Shown in pieces: positions 45,347 through 57,345 of a stretch of 64,000 nt of DNA (within the stretch, counting starts at the first letter, position 1; every line of letters begins with the position of its first letter). The stretch spans positions 1 through 64,000 of the forward strand of contig CALJES010000015.1 of the NCBI GenBank assembly GCA_938074205.1, given 5' to 3'. This DNA is from an uncultured bacterium. Lineage in GTDB: Bacteria > Armatimonadota > UBA5829. Made by a program: the position numbers and the translations under genes. The notes below the pieces were generated by a model, which was not told where the DNA came from, made no database searches, and was given only the letters and a program-made list of their open reading frames with translations.

Positions 45347-48300
45347 ATGGCTATTAGTAGAGTTAAGAGTACTAACGTAATCTTCGCAGTTGTAGTCATC
45401 CTTATCCTGGCTGTGCTGTTCTGGCCGATGAAGCAGACCAGGCCGGTGACGAAAGCCTCGGCTTCCACAACACCAGCTGAACAGAAACCAGCCTGTCCGG
45501 AGCCTTTAGCGAAGAGATACAAATCCATTGCAGCGTCGATAAACAGCGAACGGGTTAAAGCAGACGTTTACACTCTGTCTTCGTACCCGTCACGGTTGGT
45601 AGGATATCCCGGCTGCGAGAAGGCTGCTGAGTATATTGAAGACCAATTCCGTAAAATAGGCCTCGAAGAGGTGCGCAGCGAACCGTTCCGAGTGACGGTT
45701 CCCATTGACGAAGGTTCCCGTATTGTAATAGATGGCCAAAGCTTCCCGATTTATGCACTGTGGCCTAATCTGGTCAGGACATCTCACCTTCCGCCTGAGG
45801 GACTGGAGGTCCACGTAATTGATGCCGGCAGCGGTCGGCTGCCTGATTTTGACGGCAAGGCAGTCAAAGGTAGCGCAGCTCTTGTCGATTTTAACTCAGG
45901 CACAGAATGGTTGAATGCGCCCAGACTGGGAGCACGAGCACTACTTTTTGTCGAACCAGACACCACCATGCGCGGCGAGGGTGAGGCTAAGTTCAGCGCC
46001 ATCCCAGTTTCAATGCCGCGGTTCTGGGTCTCAAAGGAAACTGCTGCGAAGATAAGGGCTTTGATCGCTCAAGGAAGGGCGAATCGAGCGAGGATCTACT
46101 GTACAATGCCCTGGGAGAAAGTTAGGGCGCGCAATATCACAGGTATAATCCGCGGTACAGATCCTAAACTTCGCGATGAATGGATAGTTCTGCACGCTTA
46201 CTACGATGGCACCTCGGTTGTACCTGCCCTGGCGCCAAGCGCGGAGTCATCTTGTGGTATTGCCGCGCTTTTGGAGCTGGCTCGCTTATTTAAGCAGCCC
46301 CAGTTTGCCCCGAAACGATCCGTGATGTTCCTTGCAACTAGTGGACATTTCCAATCTTTGGCTGGAATGCGCGCCTTCATGGAGCGACATATAGATTCCT
46401 ATAGGCTGCCGGGGACGCTCGACCGCATCCACGAGTATCTGAACAGAAAATGGCCTGCCGACGGGCCAAAGGCGCTGCCATGGCCTCCAATCCTGCTCGC
46501 TATACTGTTGCTGCTCATAGTTTGGTGGATATGGACCAAGCTTAGATTTCTTAGAAGCCAGGTTCCTGCCATTGTGAGCGTTCCAATTGTCTTGGCAGCT
46601 TTGGTAATCTGGTACTGCTACAGCCTGACCGCCAGCTTTCTCAAGGGCTTTAATTATGAAATACCCAATCCTCCGCAATTCTATGTTTGGGCTGGTCTCG
46701 ATCTTTCTAGCCAAACGCAGGGAGTTGGCATTTTCTACAAGGGTTACTTCTACGACTATCGGGAAGATATCCAAGGAAAATTCTCCGATCTTGCCAGTCG
46801 TGCACGAGAAAACTCAGAACGAGTCGCAGCAACGTTGGGGTTCTTTGAGACCAGAGCTTCGAGGTTTGCTGATGGCGTAAACCCGATCACTGGCAAGAAC
46901 TGGCGCAACTTTGTGCCGGGTAAGTTTGCATTGGATAGCGAGGTGGTCACGCTAGCGGGTGGAATAGGCGTGTCATTTGTCTCTATTGATGATGGTAGGC
47001 CGCTCGTAGATACACCATTCGACAAGCCCCAGTACGTCAACTTCGCAAATCTGCACAAGCAACTCGTTATGATTGGTTGTCTGGTCGATCACTGGTTCCA
47101 TGACACCAGAACACCAATGGACGAAGAGATTATCCAGGCGACAGTTGTCGATCGAAAGACCATAAAACTTGCCGATCCGCTGCAGTTGGGATACGTGCAG
47201 GGTGTTTACACCGACGAAGTTGCTAGAGGTCGGAGCTATTATAAGCCGAAGTCCGAAAAAGAACTTCCCAAAATGCTTCCTGATGGGCGGATAACGCTCA
47301 CTGACGAATTGCCGCAAGGAGTTAGGATCGTATATGTCAGGCAAAAGCCTCTTACCAAACTTGGGGTTACTGAGCAGTGTAAGTTCACGCGAATGGGTCT
47401 GCAGGGTGGATTTGCGCGTCTTAGCGGGAATGTCGTGCAATACGACCCGCGTAGGAGTTTTGTTCCTAACCTCAAAGTTGGAGACTGCCTTGCTGTAGTG
47501 AGGAGCCCGCATAAGTCGTTCATGGGTGTGCGGGCTAACATCATAGACAAGACCACTCCCACCGAGGGATTTTTCTCCATTCCTGGAGTTGCCCCGCTGA
47601 CTGCGTACGGATGGCAAAGACTTACCTCGATAGGCGCGTACAAGCTGGATGCAGTGCGCGGAGACATTATCTGTGCTCCCGACCAGGGTTCGTACGGCCA
47701 GTTCTATCCGACAAGCTTCACCATAACCACGGGTTATAAGGACATGCCCATCATTGTGTTCGACTGCAAGGCAACGTCCGTTTACGACCTTGTTGATCCA
47801 CAGTCGCTTCGGGCGTTGACTGGGCTCTCAATGTACGAAGGGGATACTAACGGTGCGCCCAGGCAGTTTGGTTTCGCTGTTGCCGTTCCTGAACCACAGA
47901 ATCCTCATGTGGAGGATATGGCTGTCCTATTCACAGAGGATACGAAGAAGACCCAGGCACTGGCTACAGGAACGACCGCTGAGCTGAAGCGTATACGAAT
48001 AAAGGTCATAATGAGCGCCGGACCAGCCGCGAACCGACTGCTGCTGCTTAATTCAACTTTGGGCAATGAGATAATCCCGGCTGAAGTTGTCCCAGTTCAA
48101 GGTAGGGTCATAAACGATAGAGCTGTTCCTGTCGATTCTTCTTGGCAGGTCAAGGTCGAAGGCGCTTACTTGGACAAGGAGTGCACAGGAAAAAACTATT
48201 ACTTCCTTGGACCTGGCGAAGTTGACTACTCGGTAACAAGGGGTGTAATAGGGCTTTCCAGAGAGCTTCTCAACGAGTTGCCCAGAGGTAGGGAGACTAT

Positions 48301-51300
48301 ACACATAAGGACAAATCACGATACTGTTTTCCCCGCACGAATAGTCAAAGTTCTTACGCTCGACAAACCCTGGTATGAAACGATTCAGGGTGTGTATCTC
48401 GATGAACGGGCAACAGGGAAGAATTACCTGCGTCCTGCGCCTAACGCTCTCGTGGCTGGCTCGCTTAAGACCAGCCAGGTATGTGTTGCCAACGATTTTC
48501 CTACAAGGGAAGAAGTCTACCTCAAAGTAAGGAACGCTTTTGACGGCACGGTGCGCATTATCGAAGCCGGTATCGACGCAATAGATCTGAAAGCGGTAGT
48601 GTTGGGCGAGAATCCGCTTCAGGTTAGAGCGGAAGGCGTCTACTCAAATGCGAAGCTTATCGGTACCAACTATTACCGACCTTCTTCGCTGGAAGAAGGT
48701 ATAAGAGCCCTTGAAGAGGGGGGGCCGTTACTCACGGAGCGGTTCCCTGCAAATGCAGCTTCTCGCACCGTTTGGATTAAGACAAACCAGCCCAAGCCGA
48801 TCAAGGCAAACCTTGCTCGAAGCTTGGTAATTGATAGGCCGATTGAGGTTTTCGTCTCTGGAGTTTACATCGATCCGCAGTGTAAGGGACGCAACTTCCT
48901 CATAACCAAGTTCGGTACATCCTACAACAATGCGTCTCTGCTACGGGGTGAGATCCAACTTACAGACGAGCTACCCAAAGATACGAAGAGGGTCTACGTT
49001 AAACCCTTTGCTCAGCCGGAAGGGATCGGCTACGACGTCACCGAGGGCGGAACTATCGATGAAACTGCCTACAAGGTCGCCAGCGACATGTGGAAGTTGG
49101 ACGAGTATCGCCTGTCGGCGCTTGCTAGCAAAGGGGTCGTGAATGAAGGCCTTAACGCTTTGCATAGTACGGCCAAGTCGTATTTGGACCTAGCCGAGAA
49201 AGCGAAGGGCTCTCTCAACTACAGTGTTTTCGACTCCTACTGCCGTGCGGCTTGGGGCTATGAAGCCAGGGCATATCCTGATGTGACTTCTACCGCCCAA
49301 GACGTAGTGAACGGCGTCATATTCTATCTATTCTTAATGCTGCCGTTTGCATACTTTGCTGAGCGCTTGTTCTTCGCATTCCCTACACTGGGCAGACAGC
49401 TGCTTGCATTTTTTGGCATCTTCTTGGGTGTTTTCATAGTTTTCTATTTTGTGCACCCGGCCTTCCAAATAGTGGGGCAGGCCTCTTTGGTAATCCTTAT
49501 AGCATTCGTAATGTTGGCGCTCAGCTTGCTGGTCATTTCCATAGTGACGGGTAAGTTTGAGGATCAGCTCAAGCAGTTCAACCGCAGCGTGTCTGGTATA
49601 CACAAAGCTGATATTGGACGCATGAGCGTTGCAGCAGCAGCTTTCTCGCTCGGCATATCCAACATGCGGCGCCGAAAAGCGAGGACTGTCTTAACTTGTA
49701 TTACCCTTGTGCTACTCACATTTACTGTACTGTCGTTTACTTCGATAGTGTCAGTGCTTCGCTTCAACAAGGTACCTGCAAAGCGCGACCCAGATACATA
49801 TGTTTACGACGGGATAATGATTCGCACCGCAATGTGGGATCCGTTGCAAGAGATTGCCTACCGGCATCTTAAGGATGAATTCGGAAACAAGGGTCGCAGA
49901 GGTAAAGTCTACCCAGTTGCTCCTCGGGCTTGGTTCTTTGGAACTGTTCTTGGTGAACAATCCTTCCTGACACTGAGGCGCGGAGAGAAGTCCTACGATG
50001 CTAAGGCCGCCATGGGTATGGTTCCTGACGAGGCCGAGATCATGGATTTCGAAACTAATAACCGCAAGATATTCCTGGCTGGCGAGTGGTTCGGATATAA
50101 GAATGGCAAACGTGTGACTGATCGCGTCGATCCGTACTCCATTATCATTCCTGATACGATTGCAGAAAAACTTGGAATCAAGCCATCGGATGTCGGGAAA
50201 GCAAAAGTCGAGTTTGCCGGTGCCAAGTATACTGTAATCGCCATAATTAAGAACGACGTATTCAAGAGGATCAAGGATCTGGACAACGAACCACTTACCC
50301 CTGTCGATTTTATTCTGATGTCGAAACAGGGTCAGCAACAGCAGGCCGGTGCTGAAGCCGGCTTCAGAGAATATACTCACCACGAACCTGCTAACACATT
50401 CATTGTGCCTTTCGAGACCCTTATGAGTCTCGGCGGAGATTTGCGGTCAATAGCAATAAAATTCGCCACCTTCGAGGAGGTCCAGAGGCAGCTAGATTCC
50501 CTGATGCCCAGACTCGGACTGAATCTGTACGCTGGAGTCGGTGGGTATATCTACCGCTACAGTTCGATTGCTGCAAGTGCGAGCAAGGGCTTCTCGAATG
50601 TCTTTATCCCTGTTCTAATTGCTGCTTTGATAGTTCTTAACACAATGCTTGGTTCTGTGTATGAGCGTGTTAAGGAAATCGGTATATTTAGTGCCATCGG
50701 ACTTGCTCCGAACCATATTGCAATTCTGTTCATCGCGGAATCAATGGTCTATGCCAATCTCGGAGCCGTTGCTGGGTACGTCATCGGACAGGGCGTAAGC
50801 AAGTTGCTTATGGCGACAAACTGGTTGCCCGGACTTTATTTGAATTTCTCCTCAATGTCCGCGGTAACTAGTACGCTTATTGTTGTGGCCGTCGTGCTCC
50901 TCAGCACTCTCTATCCTGCAAGGAAAGCTTCGGAGGTAGCTACTCCTGCTGTTGATCGCACTTGGAAAGTGCCTGATCCCGTGGGAGATACTTGGGACAT
51001 AGTATTGCCGTTTGCCGTTACGGGCGAGCAGGCGCTAGGTGTTAATGTTTTCCTACGCGAGTGGTTCCAGGCTTACGAGGAGTACTCGATAGGCGACTTC
51101 GTAACGCAGGACGTTCGGACAACAACCTTCGATACCGACTATGGCAAGGCATACCAAATTTCTTGCAAGACTTGGCTTGCACCGTTTGATCTTGGTGTCA
51201 GTCAAACGGTCATTTTGCAAACTTTGCCCACATCTATGGAGGACGTGTTTGAGGTGAAAGTGCGCATAATACGCGAGAGCGGTGACATATCCAACTGGAA

Positions 51301-51439
51301 ACGGGTTAACAGAAGGTTCCTGAACACGCTTAGGAAACAGTTCCTAATTTGGCGAACACTTCGGCCGAGCGATCGAGAGAGGTATCTTAGTCAAGCACGC
51401 GCCGAGGAGGCTGGTGAAACAGCTCCTGCACCGGCGTAG
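45347..51439 (+). CDS. Giant fusion: inactive M28-like peptidase, unknown repeats and FtsX/MacB permease
   Basis: 2030 residues. After one membrane helix (13-27), residues ~60-365 resemble an M28 aminopeptidase with a PA-like insert. The catalytic positions look lost: LHAYYDG stands where AHYD is expected, SAESSCG replaces the DDN motif, and TSGHFQS replaces the Glu pair. Helices at ~379-425 are followed by a large exported part with five copies of a ~65-residue unit (starting near 601, 927, 1004, 1085 and 1161; pattern GVY-D-x4-GKNY, then LTDELP, then VYVK). Residues ~1320-1400 hold four helices, and 1435-1870 form an FtsX/MacB permease (MRRRKARTVLTCITLVLL; YERVKEIGIFSAIGLAPNHI). A ~160-residue C-terminal domain follows. 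It heads a six-gene block. Confidence 0.85.
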   Translation: MAISRVKSTNVIFAVVVILILAVLFWPMKQTRPVTKASASTTPAEQKPACPEPLAKRYKSIAASINSERVKADVYTLSSYPSRLVGYPGCEKAAEYIEDQFRKIGLEEVRSEPFRVTVPIDEGSRIVIDGQSFPIYALWPNLVRTSHLPPEGLEVHVIDAGSGRLPDFDGKAVKGSAALVDFNSGTEWLNAPRLGARALLFVEPDTTMRGEGEAKFSAIPVSMPRFWVSKETAAKIRALIAQGRANRARIYCTMPWEKVRARNITGIIRGTDPKLRDEWIVLHAYYDGTSVVPALAPSAESSCGIAALLELARLFKQPQFAPKRSVMFLATSGHFQSLAGMRAFMERHIDSYRLPGTLDRIHEYLNRKWPADGPKALPWPPILLAILLLLIVWWIWTKLRFLRSQVPAIVSVPIVLAALVIWYCYSLTASFLKGFNYEIPNPPQFYVWAGLDLSSQTQGVGIFYKGYFYDYREDIQGKFSDLASRARENSERVAATLGFFETRASRFADGVNPITGKNWRNFVPGKFALDSEVVTLAGGIGVSFVSIDDGRPLVDTPFDKPQYVNFANLHKQLVMIGCLVDHWFHDTRTPMDEEIIQATVVDRKTIKLADPLQLGYVQGVYTDEVARGRSYYKPKSEKELPKMLPDGRITLTDELPQGVRIVYVRQKPLTKLGVTEQCKFTRMGLQGGFARLSGNVVQYDPRRSFVPNLKVGDCLAVVRSPHKSFMGVRANIIDKTTPTEGFFSIPGVAPLTAYGWQRLTSIGAYKLDAVRGDIICAPDQGSYGQFYPTSFTITTGYKDMPIIVFDCKATSVYDLVDPQSLRALTGLSMYEGDTNGAPRQFGFAVAVPEPQNPHVEDMAVLFTEDTKKTQALATGTTAELKRIRIKVIMSAGPAANRLLLLNSTLGNEIIPAEVVPVQGRVINDRAVPVDSSWQVKVEGAYLDKECTGKNYYFLGPGEVDYSVTRGVIGLSRELLNELPRGRETIHIRTNHDTVFPARIVKVLTLDKPWYETIQGVYLDERATGKNYLRPAPNALVAGSLKTSQVCVANDFPTREEVYLKVRNAFDGTVRIIEAGIDAIDLKAVVLGENPLQVRAEGVYSNAKLIGTNYYRPSSLEEGIRALEEGGPLLTERFPANAASRTVWIKTNQPKPIKANLARSLVIDRPIEVFVSGVYIDPQCKGRNFLITKFGTSYNNASLLRGEIQLTDELPKDTKRVYVKPFAQPEGIGYDVTEGGTIDETAYKVASDMWKLDEYRLSALASKGVVNEGLNALHSTAKSYLDLAEKAKGSLNYSVFDSYCRAAWGYEARAYPDVTSTAQDVVNGVIFYLFLMLPFAYFAERLFFAFPTLGRQLLAFFGIFLGVFIVFYFVHPAFQIVGQASLVILIAFVMLALSLLVISIVTGKFEDQLKQFNRSVSGIHKADIGRMSVAAAAFSLGISNMRRRKARTVLTCITLVLLTFTVLSFTSIVSVLRFNKVPAKRDPDTYVYDGIMIRTAMWDPLQEIAYRHLKDEFGNKGRRGKVYPVAPRAWFFGTVLGEQSFLTLRRGEKSYDAKAAMGMVPDEAEIMDFETNNRKIFLAGEWFGYKNGKRVTDRVDPYSIIIPDTIAEKLGIKPSDVGKAKVEFAGAKYTVIAIIKNDVFKRIKDLDNEPLTPVDFILMSKQGQQQQAGAEAGFREYTHHEPANTFIVPFETLMSLGGDLRSIAIKFATFEEVQRQLDSLMPRLGLNLYAGVGGYIYRYSSIAASASKGFSNVFIPVLIAALIVLNTMLGSVYERVKEIGIFSAIGLAPNHIAILFIAESMVYANLGAVAGYVIGQGVSKLLMATNWLPGLYLNFSSMSAVTSTLIVVAVVLLSTLYPARKASEVATPAVDRTWKVPDPVGDTWDIVLPFAVTGEQALGVNVFLREWFQAYEEYSIGDFVTQDVRTTTFDTDYGKAYQISCKTWLAPFDLGVSQTVILQTLPTSMEDVFEVKVRIIRESGDISNWKRVNRRFLNTLRKQFLIWRTLRPSDRERYLSQARAEEAGETAPAPA

Positions 51440-51488: not shown

Positions 51489-53465
51489 TTGGCTGAAAGT
51501 CAAGATATTGTTCAAGCGAGAGAAGTTCTAGAGCAAGTATCTGGGGAAGACATAAAGCACCAAAAGTTCGAAGATGGGTTGACCCTGCGGACCGTAATCG
51601 GGTCTCTTTTCGTCGGGTTTATTATGATGCCCGGCGCAATGTATCTGGGTTTGGTCGCGGGGCAGGGGCTAGGTCCGGCGGCCGCCTGGGTTACGGTTGT
51701 GCTCTTCTCAGAAATCGCCCGCAGGTCATTCCAACCTCTCAAGAAGCAAGAGCTGTACATGCTTCTGTATATCGCGGGTGGTTTGGTCGGTGCGGCCAAC
51801 AGCGGGTTCCACGCGCTTATTTGGCACCAGTACTTAGTGCAGTGTCCTCAGATAGGGGAGCTGGCAAAAGAAATCCCCACGTGGATCGCTCCGCGAGCAA
51901 ACGACCCAGCGATTGTGCAGCGCACGTTCCTAAGCACGTCTTGGCTAGTGCCGATCATACTCATTGTTACCAACGAAATCCTCAGCAGAATGATCTGGAT
52001 CGGTGGTGGATATGCCCTCTTCCGAATCACTTCTGATCTCGAGCGGCTTCCATTCCCGTTCGCTCCGATCGCGGCCGCTGGTGCTACGGCGCTGGCCGAA
52101 GCGGGAACGAAAGAAGAGTCTTGGCGCTGGCAGGTCTTCTCGACAGGTTCGGTAGTGGGCTTACTGTTTGGGTTTATTTACGTCTTCATACCCATTGTTA
52201 CAGGTGTAATATTCGGTAAACCTGTTCAGCTTATACCAATACCGTTTATCGATTTCACGCCCAACACTGAAAATGTCCTTCCGGCGGCATGGTCTGCGTT
52301 GTCCGGAGACATAGGTGTAATGCTATGGGGCTTTGTGGTCCCGTGGCCAATCATTCTTGGATCCTTCATTAGCTCAACTATATGCGGGATATTCCTCAAT
52401 CCTATTCTTTACCACATGGGAATGTTCCCGCACTGGACATATGGGACTCCCTACCTTCAGACCCAGATGGCCACCACCATCGACTTCTGGCTTTCTGTTG
52501 CAATAGGGACAGCCCTCGGTATCGCAGTCATTGGTCTTGTAACTGTCGGAGTCGGCGCCGTCAGAGCGATGCGGGATGCGGATAGGCCGACCTTAAAGCG
52601 CACAATGCCCGAGGGTAGAGGCGACTGGAACATTTGGCTTTCCATTGGCGTTTTCTTCTTTGCAGTAATGATGCAAATTGTCATCACCCACACACTCGTT
52701 CCTGGATTTCCGGTCTGGATATTGCTGTTTTATGGGCTTATTTACACTCCGCTTATATCCTATACTTCTGCGCGTTTGGTTGGCCTTACTGGTAGGGGAA
52801 TTTCCTTCCCGTATTTGCGAGAGGCAACGATCATAAAAAGCGGGTATCGAAAGTCGGATATCTGGTTCGCAACTATTCCAATGATTGATGTGGGTGCTCA
52901 AGCCCAACACTTTAGGGAAATAGAGCTTACGGGTACCAAGTTCACGAGTATCGTCAAGGCGGAGATTTTGAAGCTTGTAGTTATTCTGCCAGCGAGCTTC
53001 GCGTTTTGGAGCTTTTTCTGGAAAACCAGTCCTATTCCATCAGCTCAGTATCCGTTCGTGCAAAAGATGTGGCCCGTCAATGCAACGATGGCGTCTATCT
53101 GGTGGACGGCAAACCGCAAGAGCATAACTGAGAACTGGCTCCTTTCAGCGCTTCGGCCTCCCGTAATCGTTGGAGCGGGTATAGGAACGCTGGTGCTTTA
53201 CGCGATTGCAAGCGTATTCAAGCTCCCGATAATGTTTTTCTATGGTTTTGTGAGCGGAATAGGCGCGGCTCCTATGGATCAGATTCCTATGTTCATTGGA
53301 GCTCTCTTAGGCAGATACTACTTCCGACGGCGGTTCGGGGCTGCTAAGTGGTCGCAGTATGCACCGGTGCTGATTGCCGGTTTTGGTTGTGGGACTGGTC
53401 TCACTGCTATGACTGGGGTTGCGGTGGCGTTGGTTACCAAATCTGTCAACTACCTTCCGTTCTGA
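51489..53465 (+). CDS. OPT-superfamily-like multi-pass membrane protein
   Basis: 658 residues from a TTG after GGGGCGGG, 49 bases downstream of the fusion gene. It has about 14 hydrophobic segments. The early GSLFVGFIMMPGAMYLGLVAG helix and the motif ERLPFPFAPIAAAGATALAE resemble oligopeptide-transporter (OPT) superfamily proteins of the uncharacterised DUF6785 kind. OPT proteins are proton-coupled importers of peptides or metal chelates; the substrate here is unknown. Linked to ABC-permease genes, it could supply or remove a product that the complex handles. Confidence 0.7.
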   Translation: MAESQDIVQAREVLEQVSGEDIKHQKFEDGLTLRTVIGSLFVGFIMMPGAMYLGLVAGQGLGPAAAWVTVVLFSEIARRSFQPLKKQELYMLLYIAGGLVGAANSGFHALIWHQYLVQCPQIGELAKEIPTWIAPRANDPAIVQRTFLSTSWLVPIILIVTNEILSRMIWIGGGYALFRITSDLERLPFPFAPIAAAGATALAEAGTKEESWRWQVFSTGSVVGLLFGFIYVFIPIVTGVIFGKPVQLIPIPFIDFTPNTENVLPAAWSALSGDIGVMLWGFVVPWPIILGSFISSTICGIFLNPILYHMGMFPHWTYGTPYLQTQMATTIDFWLSVAIGTALGIAVIGLVTVGVGAVRAMRDADRPTLKRTMPEGRGDWNIWLSIGVFFFAVMMQIVITHTLVPGFPVWILLFYGLIYTPLISYTSARLVGLTGRGISFPYLREATIIKSGYRKSDIWFATIPMIDVGAQAQHFREIELTGTKFTSIVKAEILKLVVILPASFAFWSFFWKTSPIPSAQYPFVQKMWPVNATMASIWWTANRKSITENWLLSALRPPVIVGAGIGTLVLYAIASVFKLPIMFFYGFVSGIGAAPMDQIPMFIGALLGRYYFRRRFGAAKWSQYAPVLIAGFGCGTGLTAMTGVAVALVTKSVNYLPF

Positions 53466-53544: not shown

Positions 53545-54486
53545 ATGAACGTCAGCAAAGCCGGATTATGTTTAAAAAAGGCTATGCGTGAGACCTGGAG
53601 CACAATTGCCTGGGAGGGCGTGACAGTCCGAGTACCGGCAGAGTGGAGTTTGGTCGGCGTAAGCGGAGATGCTCAGAAAGGTTATCTCCGAGTAGACAGC
53701 CCGGCGCAGTCTGTCTTGGAGATGAGGTGGTCGGCAGCATCAGGAAAACCGCCTGAGCTGTTAGCGAAAGGCCGGGAACTTCTGGCTAATCTAGATAAGA
53801 GCTGTCGGAAGCAGGGCACAAAGGTAACAAGCAAGATCAAGAACGAAGGAGATTCTGTAACCTTTTGGTGGAAGGCGGATCGCATCGGCGAAGGCAGATT
53901 GACCTACTGTCAAAAGTGCGACCGGGTGTTGATCGCACAGGTGATCTATCCGCCCGAGGAGGATTTGTCTGATACCGCTCAGAGCATTCTTAGGTCGATG
54001 CGCGATCATCGAAGCGACAACCTTATCGCCTGGGCACTTTACGGTTTTGAATTCGCGGTTCCAGCTAGTTACGTTCTCGACAGACACACTTTGATGTCTG
54101 GATATATCAAGTTAGCGTTTAAAAATCGTGCGAAGCAGTTGGTCGTCGAGCGGTGGGGGCTGGCAAATACAATTGTGGCCGACTATTCGCTAATGGATTG
54201 GTACCGAAAAGACGTTCTTCCTGACGTGAAAGGGTTCAGAACCGACTTTGAGCAAATAGATATTTCAGGTCATCCTGGACTGCGGGTTTGGGGACAAGCA
54301 GCGGGCATCAGACAGGCGGTCAAGTCTGTGGCATACTCACTCACTCTATACACCAATCCCAGATTTCTTACGGGATATGCTTGGCATTGCACGGAGAGCA
54401 ACAGGCTTTACAGTGTGAGAGCCACTCACGACAAAGGTGAAAATATCGCGGAACGCGTGCGCGACTTGATACGATGTCATAAATAG
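53545..54486 (+). CDS. Unknown protein with two similar halves
   Basis: 313 residues, no signal peptide or membrane helix. The two halves look related: TIAWEGVTVRVPAEWSLVG, then GYLRVD and LEMRWSA in the first, and LIAWALYGFEFAVPASYVLD, then GYIKLAF and LVVERWGL in the second. The first half ends with a Cys pair (YCQKCD). This suggests an internal duplication of a ~150-residue beta-rich domain. I do not recognise a named family. It is followed after 2 bases by the PqqD-like gene, so the two are translated together. Confidence 0.8.
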   Translation: MNVSKAGLCLKKAMRETWSTIAWEGVTVRVPAEWSLVGVSGDAQKGYLRVDSPAQSVLEMRWSAASGKPPELLAKGRELLANLDKSCRKQGTKVTSKIKNEGDSVTFWWKADRIGEGRLTYCQKCDRVLIAQVIYPPEEDLSDTAQSILRSMRDHRSDNLIAWALYGFEFAVPASYVLDRHTLMSGYIKLAFKNRAKQLVVERWGLANTIVADYSLMDWYRKDVLPDVKGFRTDFEQIDISGHPGLRVWGQAAGIRQAVKSVAYSLTLYTNPRFLTGYAWHCTESNRLYSVRATHDKGENIAERVRDLIRCHK

Positions 54487-54488
54487 AA

Positions 54489-54917
54489 ATGAGCCGACTG
54501 AGTAACTCGATATCAAGATTCATCCCCTTTTTGGGAGCCAAGCCTAAGATAGACCGCAAGCAGGCGCTTGCAGTTGTGCCAGTGCGCAACCCTCTGATAG
54601 AGTGGGAGCGTCGTGGTAAGGAGATCCACCTGAGTATACCTATGCGCGACGATTGCGTGGCGCGCTTAGTAAAGCGCTTTCTGCGCAACGTGCCGGAAAG
54701 GCGTCGTGTGGCTCTGGATGAGGTTGGCGCTGCAGTTTGGGAGCTGTGCAATGGAGAGCGAAGCATAAACTCGATTGTTGAGTCCATATCGAGAAGCTAC
54801 AAGTTGACCCGTAGAGAAGCGGAAGCGTCAGTTACGATGTTCCTTCAAACCCTTGCTAAACGTAACTATATAGGCCTCATGTCCTTAGGAGGTAGCAAAG
54901 GTGCCAAACGAAAGTAG
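54489..54917 (+). CDS. PqqD-like protein
   Basis: 142 residues. The C-terminal ~90 residues match the PqqD fold: RRRVALDEVGAAVWELCNGE, then SINSIVESISRSYKL and AEASVTMFLQTLAKRNYIGL. PqqD domains bind precursor peptides as RiPP recognition elements, but many stand-alone copies have no known peptide, and no radical-SAM enzyme or peptide gene is visible here. It starts 2 bases after the duplicated protein and overlaps the permease by 17 bases. It may be an adaptor in the ABC complex. Confidence 0.75.
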   Translation: MSRLSNSISRFIPFLGAKPKIDRKQALAVVPVRNPLIEWERRGKEIHLSIPMRDDCVARLVKRFLRNVPERRRVALDEVGAAVWELCNGERSINSIVESISRSYKLTRREAEASVTMFLQTLAKRNYIGLMSLGGSKGAKRK

Positions 54918-56532
54918 TAAGGCAGCGATCGGTCGTCAGACCCAACTGCCATTCAAGCGCGCTCTTGAAATCAGTCTCAAGAGCTTAAAGATAAGGTTCT
55001 GGCGTTCAATGATAACGGCCGCTGGCATTTTCTTGGGAATCGCGTTCCTGACTGTCGTACTAACACAGTCCCTGTTGCAATGGCCGATTCCTGAGAGAGT
55101 TGACGCAGGATTTGTTAGGGTTAGCGGACAGGTCAATGGGCCTGGCGACTATGACGTGTGGACCCCTGCGTCGATTGATGAGGGTCTTAAAGCAGGTATT
55201 CCAAAAGAAGTTCTGGAGCGAGTTGCCGTCGATGGCAAGTTCAACCTAAGAGATATAGTTCAGGGTGCAATAAACGCTGAGCGTGCTGAGAAGAAACTCA
55301 AGCGTTTGGAGCAAGAGTGGCGCGACCTCTCCAAGATCAAGGACGACCTGGCTTTCTACGTAAGTGTCGCCTCAGACGCGGATATAAGAATTCGAGAAGC
55401 GTTGAAACGCGGGGTGCCAAAGTTCACTGCGCGCAACCTAGCAATAGTGGCAGACGTGAGGAAGGACCTGGAAAGAATGCTGGAAGAAGAAGGGCCAAGT
55501 TCAGATAGCAAGGAAGTTCGCGCGCTCAAGGCGGAACTCGATTTCTACATGGCAGCTGCTGCCGATCCAAGGGTAAAACTTTCGGACGCGGTGAAATACG
55601 GTGTTCCAGAGGGAAAAAAGCGCAGAACTCCTGGTGAGAAGGCGACCTTCAAGGGCAGTGATCTGGCTGAAATTATCAGGCAGCAACCGGAGTGGGTTAA
55701 TACACTCTTCGCGAGCGCTGCGTTGGACCAGGACGTCACTATTAAAGACGCTATCAGGCAAGGCGTCCCTGAAACAGTAGCGAAAAGGTTGGCAGGGCAG
55801 GGAAATACTTTCAAGCCCAGCGCGCTCAATGACTTGATCAAGACGTACCCGGATCAGGTAAAGAAGTGGAAGCGCAGAGCAGAGCGCAACTCGATATTCA
55901 AGGCTGTTTCCAAATCAGCTGTTGCTGTAATTGCTCGTTCTCATGCAAGAACTCTGAACGATGTGCTGGCTGACGCGAAACAGTTGGCGAAAGAGGCCGA
56001 CCGTACGAACGTGATGATTGTCAACAAAGACCGAAAGATAAAAGTTGATTTCTCGCGTTACGGGCAGGATGCTGGCAATGTCAAACTTGTTGACGGCGAC
56101 AACATCTATGTCCCAGATCGCAATGCGCGCTATCGGATGATATGGTTGGTGGTTATGTCCTTATTAGTTTGCACAGTTGGTATAACAAACAGTATGCTTA
56201 TGTCGGTAACCGAGCGTTTCAAGGAAATCGGCACAATGAAATGCTTGGGGGCTTTGGATAAGTTTGTAGTTGAGCTGTTTATGCTGGAGTCTGGGATGAT
56301 GGGCGGCGCTGCATCAATTCTGGGCTGGCTGACCGGTTTCATTCTTATGGTTATCGTTGCCGTGTCAACCACCGGTTGGGATGTTATCCGCAATTTGGAA
56401 GCGAAGGCCGTTCTGCTGACGTTTATCGAGGCAGTAGTCATTGGCATGCTTTTGACTATTATTGCGACGATAGCACCTGCCAAGCGAGCGGCGGATATGC
56501 CGCCTGCTATGGCTTTACGGTCTGAGATATAA
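54901..56532 (+). CDS. FtsX-type permease with GVP repeats and an SLBB-like domain
   Basis: 543 residues from a GTG preceded by AGGAGG. The first helix (MITAAGIFLGIAFLTVVL) and the C-terminal FtsX part (SMLMSVTERFKEIGTMKCLG, then helices to ~535, ending ALRSEI) are standard. Between them lies an unusual exported domain. It holds four short repeats of the form D-x-x-I-x-x-A-x-x-x-GVP (near 91, 159, 222 and 277), a charged coiled-coil-like stretch (~120-150), and residues ~349-405 that look like an SLBB beta-grasp (LNDVLADAKQLAKEADRTNV ending VDGDNIYVPDRN). SLBB domains usually occur in polysaccharide export proteins, not in FtsX permeases. Confidence 0.85.
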   Translation: MPNESSKAAIGRQTQLPFKRALEISLKSLKIRFWRSMITAAGIFLGIAFLTVVLTQSLLQWPIPERVDAGFVRVSGQVNGPGDYDVWTPASIDEGLKAGIPKEVLERVAVDGKFNLRDIVQGAINAERAEKKLKRLEQEWRDLSKIKDDLAFYVSVASDADIRIREALKRGVPKFTARNLAIVADVRKDLERMLEEEGPSSDSKEVRALKAELDFYMAAAADPRVKLSDAVKYGVPEGKKRRTPGEKATFKGSDLAEIIRQQPEWVNTLFASAALDQDVTIKDAIRQGVPETVAKRLAGQGNTFKPSALNDLIKTYPDQVKKWKRRAERNSIFKAVSKSAVAVIARSHARTLNDVLADAKQLAKEADRTNVMIVNKDRKIKVDFSRYGQDAGNVKLVDGDNIYVPDRNARYRMIWLVVMSLLVCTVGITNSMLMSVTERFKEIGTMKCLGALDKFVVELFMLESGMMGGAASILGWLTGFILMVIVAVSTTGWDVIRNLEAKAVLLTFIEAVVIGMLLTIIATIAPAKRAADMPPAMALRSEI

Positions 56533-56598: not shown

Positions 56599-57345
56599 AT
56601 GGCGAACGAAAAGCGTGAATACGTGGTGCGGTGTAAAGACCTATACAAAGAGTTCGTGATGGGAGATACGGTTCTGCAAGCGCTAAAGGGCATCCAGCTT
56701 GATATTTATAGAGGAGAGTACGTATCTATTATGGGTCCGTCTGGTTCTGGCAAGTCAACACTGTTTAACATGGTCGGAGGTCTGGACAAGCCCACCTCCG
56801 GCACGGTGTTCATTAACGATGTGGATATGGCTCAATTGGATGCCCAAGAACTTGCCTACCTGAGATGCCGCACCATAGGCTATATATTCCAGACGTTCAA
56901 CTTGATCCCAGTAATGACGGCCCTCGAAAACGTCGTCTTGCCTATGATTTTCGCAGGAGTTCCGCAAGATGAAGCTGTGGAGCGTGGTATTGAGTTACTG
57001 AAGATAGTTGGTCTGGGCGATCGACTGCATCACAAGCCGACCGAATTATCGGGTGGTCAGCAGCAGCGAGTTGCGTGCGCTCGGGCTCTTGCGAATAATC
57101 CTGCAATAATACTCGCCGATGAGCCGACTGGAAACCTTGATCTTAAGACGGGGAAGGAGATCATTGAACTCCTGCGCAGGCTCAATAAAGAGCAGGGCGT
57201 GACGGTCATTTCGGCAACGCACGATCTCAAAATGATCGATATCTCTGATCGCATCGTCTGGATACGCGACGGCCAGATAGAACGGATCGAGAACAGAGAA
57301 GATATCGAGCTTAAGGTTGGTTCTGTAGAGCACGAAGAAGAATGA
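56599..57345 (+). CDS. ABC transporter ATPase, LolD/MacB type
   Basis: 248 residues. Walker A GPSGSGKST begins at residue 46, the Q-loop is in FQTFNLIPVMTALENV, the signature is LSGGQQQRVACARAL, Walker B is IILADEPTGNLD and the H-loop is SATHDLK. This is the LolD/FtsE/MacB class that powers FtsX-type permeases. GAGAGGTG precedes the ATG. As the only ATPase in the block, it would serve both the 2030-residue and the 543-residue permease, giving a LolCDE-like asymmetric complex. Confidence 0.95.
   Translation: MANEKREYVVRCKDLYKEFVMGDTVLQALKGIQLDIYRGEYVSIMGPSGSGKSTLFNMVGGLDKPTSGTVFINDVDMAQLDAQELAYLRCRTIGYIFQTFNLIPVMTALENVVLPMIFAGVPQDEAVERGIELLKIVGLGDRLHHKPTELSGGQQQRVACARALANNPAIILADEPTGNLDLKTGKEIIELLRRLNKEQGVTVISATHDLKMIDISDRIVWIRDGQIERIENREDIELKVGSVEHEEE

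Follow-up and report, generated by a model that had tools for sequence, protein, structure and literature searches.

Type VII ATP-binding cassette (ABC) machines turn ATP binding and hydrolysis into movement in the periplasm, and one of them, YbbAP-TesA of E. coli, feeds a hydrolase partner (PMC12646458). The window analysed here, 64,000 nucleotides from an uncultured bacterium of the Armatimonadota lineage UBA5829 (GenBank assembly GCA_938074205.1, contig CALJES010000015.1, positions 1 to 64,000), carries on its forward strand a single open frame (45347-51436) for a protein of 2030 residues, the giant permease, in which an M28-type head is joined to an FtsX permease. It is followed in the same direction by genes for a DUF6785-like membrane protein, a 313-residue protein, a PqqD-like protein, a second and much smaller FtsX permease (mini-FtsX, or FtsX2) and a LolD-like ATPase. 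The giant permease may serve as the larger permease subunit in a type VII ABC machine (MacB/LolCDE/YbbAP-like) spread across the Armatimonadota, one that has a remodelled head binding a ligand or partner and that works with DUF6785-type proteins, a reading for which belief and doubt are about evenly matched. The fusion reported in the initial annotation is real, and it is more interesting as a six-gene system than as a lone fusion.

With YbbAP-TesA the locus shares a type VII permease, a MacB-like periplasmic domain, a LolD-like ATPase and a periplasmic partner with a hydrolase fold (PMC12646458). TesA, however, is a separate, active GDSL esterase, whereas the M28/PA head here lies within the permease chain and lacks a canonical catalytic site; likewise, YbbP is a duplicated permease, whereas the partner here is a separate mini-FtsX. 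LolCDE is similar in its LolD-like ATPase, its two different FtsX permeases and its LolE-like periplasmic domain, but here one permease has no periplasmic domain, the other has gained roughly 1400 residues, and there are extra conserved partners (the DUF6785-like, 313-residue and PqqD-like proteins). The M28/PA aminopeptidases YwaD/BSAP (6hc6) and 2ek8 have the same fold, including the PA-type insert, and differ in that the zinc ligands and base are replaced here, a transmembrane (TM) hairpin sits in the catalytic fold and the whole is fused to a permease. Transferrin receptor 1 is also a membrane-anchored M28/PA fold without peptidase chemistry; unlike the present protein it has no ABC permease, and its function is unrelated; the pocket of the present protein is altered yet strictly conserved. 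A literature search found nothing on M28-FtsX fusions, on M28 pseudoenzymes with permeases or on DUF6785.

The C-terminal part of the giant permease is a MacB/LolE/YbbP-type (type VII) ABC permease with a conserved cytoplasmic domain. Pfam places FtsX at residues 1753-1862 (56.3 bits against a cut-off of 25.5), and the core has the type VII layout of a TM helix, a periplasmic domain and three TM helices (Pfam, TM plot, Z of 12). The model of the periplasmic domain (1478-1737) matches YbbP (9ge6, Z 12.6), LolE and MacB (3ftj, Z 12.2) about equally. The FtsX/MacB assignment made in the initial annotation for residues 1435-2030 is thereby borne out, except that this span also holds, after the FtsX part, an extra conserved cytoplasmic domain (about 1879-2010), the best-conserved block with a median identity of 66%.

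The M28 relationship proposed for the N-terminal domain is confirmed by Pfam (residues 263-349, 32.7 bits against a cut-off of 21.3), and a profile built from 13 homologues aligns with 2ek8 (E 1e-20) and 6hc6 (E 1e-14), both M28/PA aminopeptidases, over a stretch that starts at the N-terminus and takes in the PA part. The limits first given to the domain, residues 60-365, are wrong. The second half of the fold (440-592) was recognised by eye and in a weak further segment of the match to 6hc6; in this half, GLDLSS holds the equivalent of zinc ligand D179 of Aeromonas aminopeptidase (AAP), and VDTPFD occupies the place of the catalytic His-Thr-x-x-Asp motif. In an AlphaFold2 model of the head (residues 40-1229, mean predicted local distance difference test (pLDDT) score 69, M28 part mostly 75-94), AAP (1amp) superposes at Z 27.9 and 2.5 Å over 267 of 291 residues. 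Given that this alignment (VIA-align) spans model positions 15 to 549, that is, residues 54-588, the predicted head has a complete alpha/beta M28 fold running from about 54 to 592 and split by the TM hairpin at 377-424. Only 11 of 41 homologues possess the hairpin, the remainder having a short soluble linker or another insert, and the hairpin was consequently rejected as a defining trait of the family. TM segments taken from a hydrophobicity plot allow one consistent arrangement, in which TM helix 1 would be followed by an outer head, the hairpin, and again outside the rest of the head, the repeats and a middle domain; then would come three TM helices, the FtsX TM helix, the periplasmic domain, three more TM helices and a cytoplasmic C-terminus. 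The middle domain (671-905, 235 residues) is conserved among homologues and poorly predicted in the AlphaFold2 model.

In AAP numbering, and over 41 aligned homologues, the di-zinc ligands His, Asp, Glu, Asp and His have become Tyr, Glu, Phe, Asp and Asp, and the catalytic Glu has become His, which is not the set of an active M28 metallopeptidase. The H97 position is Tyr in 33 homologues, Phe in five, Ser in two and His in one; the E152 position (F335) is Phe in 32, His in five, Cys in three and Tyr in one. Conversely, D287, E532, D549, R551 and D559 are each present in all 41, and identity reaches at least 90% at seven of the nine pocket positions, as compared with 16% of positions in the domain (hypergeometric p 6e-5). 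Judged from the aligned residues, then, the canonical di-zinc centre cannot form, and the pocket appears conserved in a new form rather than decayed. Since three distant Fimbriimonas-like homologues (40-45% identity) share the pocket set, one with Asp at the D117 position, the altered pocket is the family-wide state across the 44 homologues inspected, rare Asp, Glu and Asn swaps aside. D287, E300, H334, D452, E532, D555 and D559 make up an invariant alternative constellation, the geometry of which is suggested by the alignment. H334 was also considered as a replacement of zinc ligand E152, an assignment rejected in that the profile alignment puts it at base E151.

In the initial annotation every expected metal or catalytic residue seemed to be replaced. 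The alignment with M28 structures agrees that the di-zinc site is not intact and that H97, E151, E152 and H256 are now Tyr, His, Phe and Asp, but D179 is kept (D452) and D117 is conservatively Glu. Its further description of a dead peptidase is right as to the family-wide loss of di-zinc ligands and unproven as to inactivity, given the invariant pocket set and an AAP mutant deposited in the PDB under the title 'Functional Glutamate 151 to Histidine mutant' (2anp). Because that mutant was deposited as functional, a His at the base position alone does not exclude catalysis. It is therefore conceivable, if a minority view, that the head is still an enzyme with a remodelled, possibly mononuclear or metal-free site (E300, H334, D452, D555 and E532), performing hydrolysis or acyl transfer and powered or gated by the ABC module as TesA is by YbbAP. 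An invariant constellation is unlike the drift of a dead enzyme, the E151H mutant speaks for the same possibility, and glutaminyl cyclases, an example of the M28 fold with changed chemistry, match the head model at Z of about 25. Against this, three of the five zinc ligands (H97, E152 and H256) are gone, and such invariance could equally reflect a bound ligand or buried salt bridges, D549-x-R551 being invariant too. A receptor-like role other than that of a peptidase agrees with the family-wide loss of the di-zinc ligands, and binding of a ligand or partner seems the likeliest function of the head, held at even confidence and ahead of the re-tooled enzyme.

The six-gene block recurs in most inspected families across the Armatimonadota; in two genomes FtsX2 and the LolD-like gene lie upstream of the giant gene. 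The ATPase is of LolD/MacB type with Walker motifs, as in type VII systems, and scores below the NCBIfam LolD equivalog cut-off (240.1 against 307.75 bits). In most homologues FtsX2 has 203-240 residues, its periplasmic domain being gone and a short loop left, and in this order it carries an SLBB-domain insert in the extracytoplasmic loop (SLBB_2 4e-17 in L059:13920-15212). SLBB domains are of the polysaccharide-export type. The 658-residue neighbour has no Pfam match and does not reach the DUF6785 cut-off; against the DUF6785 alignment, however, hhalign gives 87% probability (E 3.8e-6, 205 columns) with a common ERLxFP motif, as compared with 0.2-0.3% for control pairs of unrelated membrane proteins. 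Profile comparison thus makes it a remote DUF6785 homologue. The motif may resemble one of OPT transporters. Sequence search found no relatives of the DUF6785 families among solved structures. A paralogue of the giant gene adjoins a bona fide DUF6785/DUF6784 gene.

The distribution of these genes carries the proposed link with DUF6785. Homologues of the giant permease are spread throughout the Armatimonadota: searched by its permease part, it was found in 157 of the 237 genomes, covering 103 of the 140 genera. In a set of 61 genomes, the 14 without the giant gene are also the 14 without its 14-TM neighbour, leaving aside an incomplete genome that retains just a fragment of the giant gene and no neighbour; the PqqD-like protein tracks the same pattern. 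Across 151 genomes, 108 have both the giant gene and DUF6785, 41 neither, two DUF6785 only and none the giant gene only (phi 0.97); the nominal Fisher p of 6e-35 ignores relatedness and cannot be taken at face value. One of the two DUF6785-only genomes is a metagenome-assembled genome (MAG) in 400 contigs with relatives that have the giant permease, and the other has seven DUF6785 copies with weaker scores. Presence is mixed inside four families and inside three single genera. Coupling of the giant permease with DUF6785 is well supported by these patterns of gene content. Restriction to the Armatimonadota is not proven, because a contig scan gave, beside MAGs of Armatimonadota/Hebobacteria, two labelled Actinomycetota (L046) and Bacillota (L048) with contigs that carry the system. 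The former label is probably wrong, because the contig coordinates are those of a genome classed as Armatimonadota. The same scan returned a weak, M28-only match in Muriicola; outside the phylum, no giant permease was found on plasmids or in 198 Bacteroidota.

It is no more and no less probable than a surviving enzyme, and hence unlikely, that the DUF6785 link is indirect, both genes having been lost in lineages of simpler lifestyle without ever working together. Sulfatases, a patchy and multicopy control, also correlate with the giant gene in the same 151 genomes (103/5/21/22, phi about 0.55), and DUF6785 genes have varied neighbours in the genome studied. However, none of the 108 genomes with the giant gene lacks DUF6785 and 2 of the 110 with DUF6785 lack the giant gene, a rule that extends to genera of mixed state, and in both the paralogue locus and the block the giant gene has a DUF6785-type gene next to it. 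Somewhat more doubtful is an ordinary type VII function, LolCDE-like lipoprotein release or FtsEX-like hydrolase activation, with the head as a docking platform and DUF6785 no partner. The ATPase is closest to LolD, and the periplasmic domain fits LolE, MacB and YbbP about equally well. But between a quarter and a third of genomes lack the giant gene, in contrast to the essential Lol and FtsEX systems, and its joint loss with DUF6785 and with the DUF6785-like neighbour would be left unexplained.

Several observations weigh against the type VII machine with DUF6785-type partners as proposed here. The model of the FtsX part has a mean pLDDT of 62, the C-terminal domain resembles helix-grip folds weakly (Z 8-9), and Fimbriimonas-like genomes have the giant gene without the block. 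The nine DUF6785/DUF6784 genes of the genome studied are scattered, with unrelated neighbours (ribonucleotide reductase, dnaA, dprA, GH123, heparinase-like and sugar ABC-like genes), and because of those unrelated neighbours the coupling rests on co-occurrence, a measure inflated by relatedness. An operon partner for DUF6785 was sought in this genome and rejected, the neighbours having none in common and being mostly housekeeping, glycoside-hydrolase and sugar-transport genes.

The repeats of the giant permease are a separate matter. The five units of the initial annotation are all recovered by profile search, with no match among 40 shuffled decoys, but they do not form one array: unit 1 precedes and units 2-5 follow the conserved middle domain. 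Sequence searches matched them neither in Pfam nor among PDB sequences, which bears on whether they belong to a known family. They are found only in part of the GTDB family to which this genome belongs, this gene having five, three others about five, two and one, and the other aligned homologues none. The unit also occurs at least 18 times, whole or in part, in a 4102-residue protein of the same genome (contig C6, L097:6641-18946), and large repeat-bearing open reading frames (ORFs) are found in five family members without the giant permease. Because of these copies and of the occurrence in relatives lacking the giant permease, the repeat resembles a mobile surface module, a lineage decoration and not the essence of the protein. 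A part in the core machine was considered and rejected, most homologues having no repeats and relatives having repeats without the giant gene. That the system exports or anchors a surface protein bearing the same repeat, the repeats being a homotypic docking site, accounts for their sharing by the giant permease and the 4102-residue surface-type protein but is highly improbable given those five relatives and the lack of repeats in most giant permeases. The 4102-residue protein, of a secreted surface type, has a signal-peptide-like N-terminus and many immunoglobulin-like stretches, and its gene follows a subtilase gene (L097:2239-4548) and two more large ORFs; gene runs of similar size are seen at two further loci.

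How the proposed machine might work we infer largely by analogy, as we do its substrate. The giant permease and mini-FtsX would pair over two LolD-like ATPases, and ATP binding and hydrolysis would move the periplasmic side, including the M28 head, by mechanotransmission. The head, no longer a di-zinc peptidase, would bind a ligand or partner such as a peptide, a lipoprotein or the end of an envelope polymer, and would pass it to, or gate, the adjoining DUF6785-type protein and the relatives of that protein encoded at other genomic sites; DUF6785-type membrane proteins are the most probable partners of the head. Repeats and TM hairpin would be lineage-specific additions to the head. The substrate-binding receptor envisaged for the fusion in the initial annotation thus survives in part: an altered M28 domain does sit on a permease and the ligand loss fits, but "dead" is unproven and the repeats are not core. 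More speculatively, a single type VII module with a remodelled M28 head, receptor or enzyme, could be a shared motor for the DUF6785 family (nine members in this genome and more in certain others). Labour would then be divided much as between the modules and S-components of energy-coupling factor (ECF) transporters, though on a mechanotransmission machine of MacB/Lol type, a reading that we consider doubtful. The likeness to ECF transporters, in which one ABC module serves many membrane proteins encoded elsewhere in the genome (PMC7755397), is by analogy only; the ABC type differs, and no homology to S-components is claimed.

Table 1. Coordinates of the giant permease, its parts and the surrounding genes in the window (residue numbers are those of the giant permease).
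Feature	Coordinates	Strand	Basis
Giant permease gene, 2030 residues	45347..51439	+	single open frame
N-terminal TM helix 1 (10-28)	45374..45430	+	hydrophobicity
M28 fold, first half (54-365), with PA-type insert	45506..46441	+	Pfam M28; profile match to 2ek8, 6hc6; model alignment
D287, AAP D99 equivalent	46205..46207	+	41/41 homologues
E300, equivalent of bridging ligand D117	46244..46246	+	Glu 39, Asp 2 of 41
H334, equivalent of general base E151	46346..46348	+	41/41; aligned with H151 of mutant 2anp
TM hairpin (377-424) between M28 halves	46475..46618	+	hydrophobicity; 11/41 homologues
M28 fold, second half (440-592): D452, E532, D549-x-R551, D555-T-P-x-D559	46664..47122	+	profile and model alignment
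D452, zinc ligand D179 equivalent	46700..46702	+	41/41
D555, zinc ligand H256 equivalent	47009..47011	+	Asp 39, Glu 1, Asn 1 of 41
Repeat unit 1 (597-665)	47135..47341	+	profile search, 78 bits
Conserved domain, family unassigned (671-905)	47357..48061	+	homologue conservation; no Pfam match
Repeat unit 2 (920-988)	48104..48310	+	profile search
Repeat unit 3 (996-1060)	48332..48526	+	profile search
Repeat unit 4 (1076-1145)	48572..48781	+	profile search
Repeat unit 5 (1154-1219)	48806..49003	+	profile search
Three TM helices preceding FtsX core (1317-1400)	49295..49546	+	hydrophobicity; strongly conserved
FtsX/MacB permease core (1452-1868): TM, periplasmic domain 1478-1737, three TMs	49700..50950	+	Pfam FtsX; YbbP/MacB match
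C-terminal cytoplasmic domain (1879-2010), beta-alpha-beta4-alpha, possibly helix-grip	50981..51376	+	model match; conservation
658-residue protein, about 14 TM helices, distant DUF6785 relative	51489..53465	+	hhalign; absent together with giant gene
313-residue protein, no predicted TM, no Pfam family	53545..54486	+	conserved in block
PqqD-like protein	54489..54917	+	Pfam PqqD 4.8e-13; co-occurs with giant gene
Second FtsX permease (FtsX2, mini-FtsX)	54901..56532	+	FtsX domain; homologue comparison
LolD-like ATPase	56599..57345	+	NCBIfam LolD; Walker A GPSGSGKST, DEPTGNLD
Upstream protein, 528 residues	43343..44929		signal-peptide-like N-terminus; no Pfam match; no relative in homologous loci searched
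Lhr-type helicase, 1482 residues	57484..61932	-	

More broadly, the system as read here would add to the type VII ABC machines one that is phylum-wide, carries its partner domain within the permease chain and has an old protease fold refitted there. The invariant pocket residues make the question of receptor versus new enzyme directly testable. Finally, the coupling would give an initial clue to the function of DUF6785/DUF6784, a membrane family present in multiple copies.

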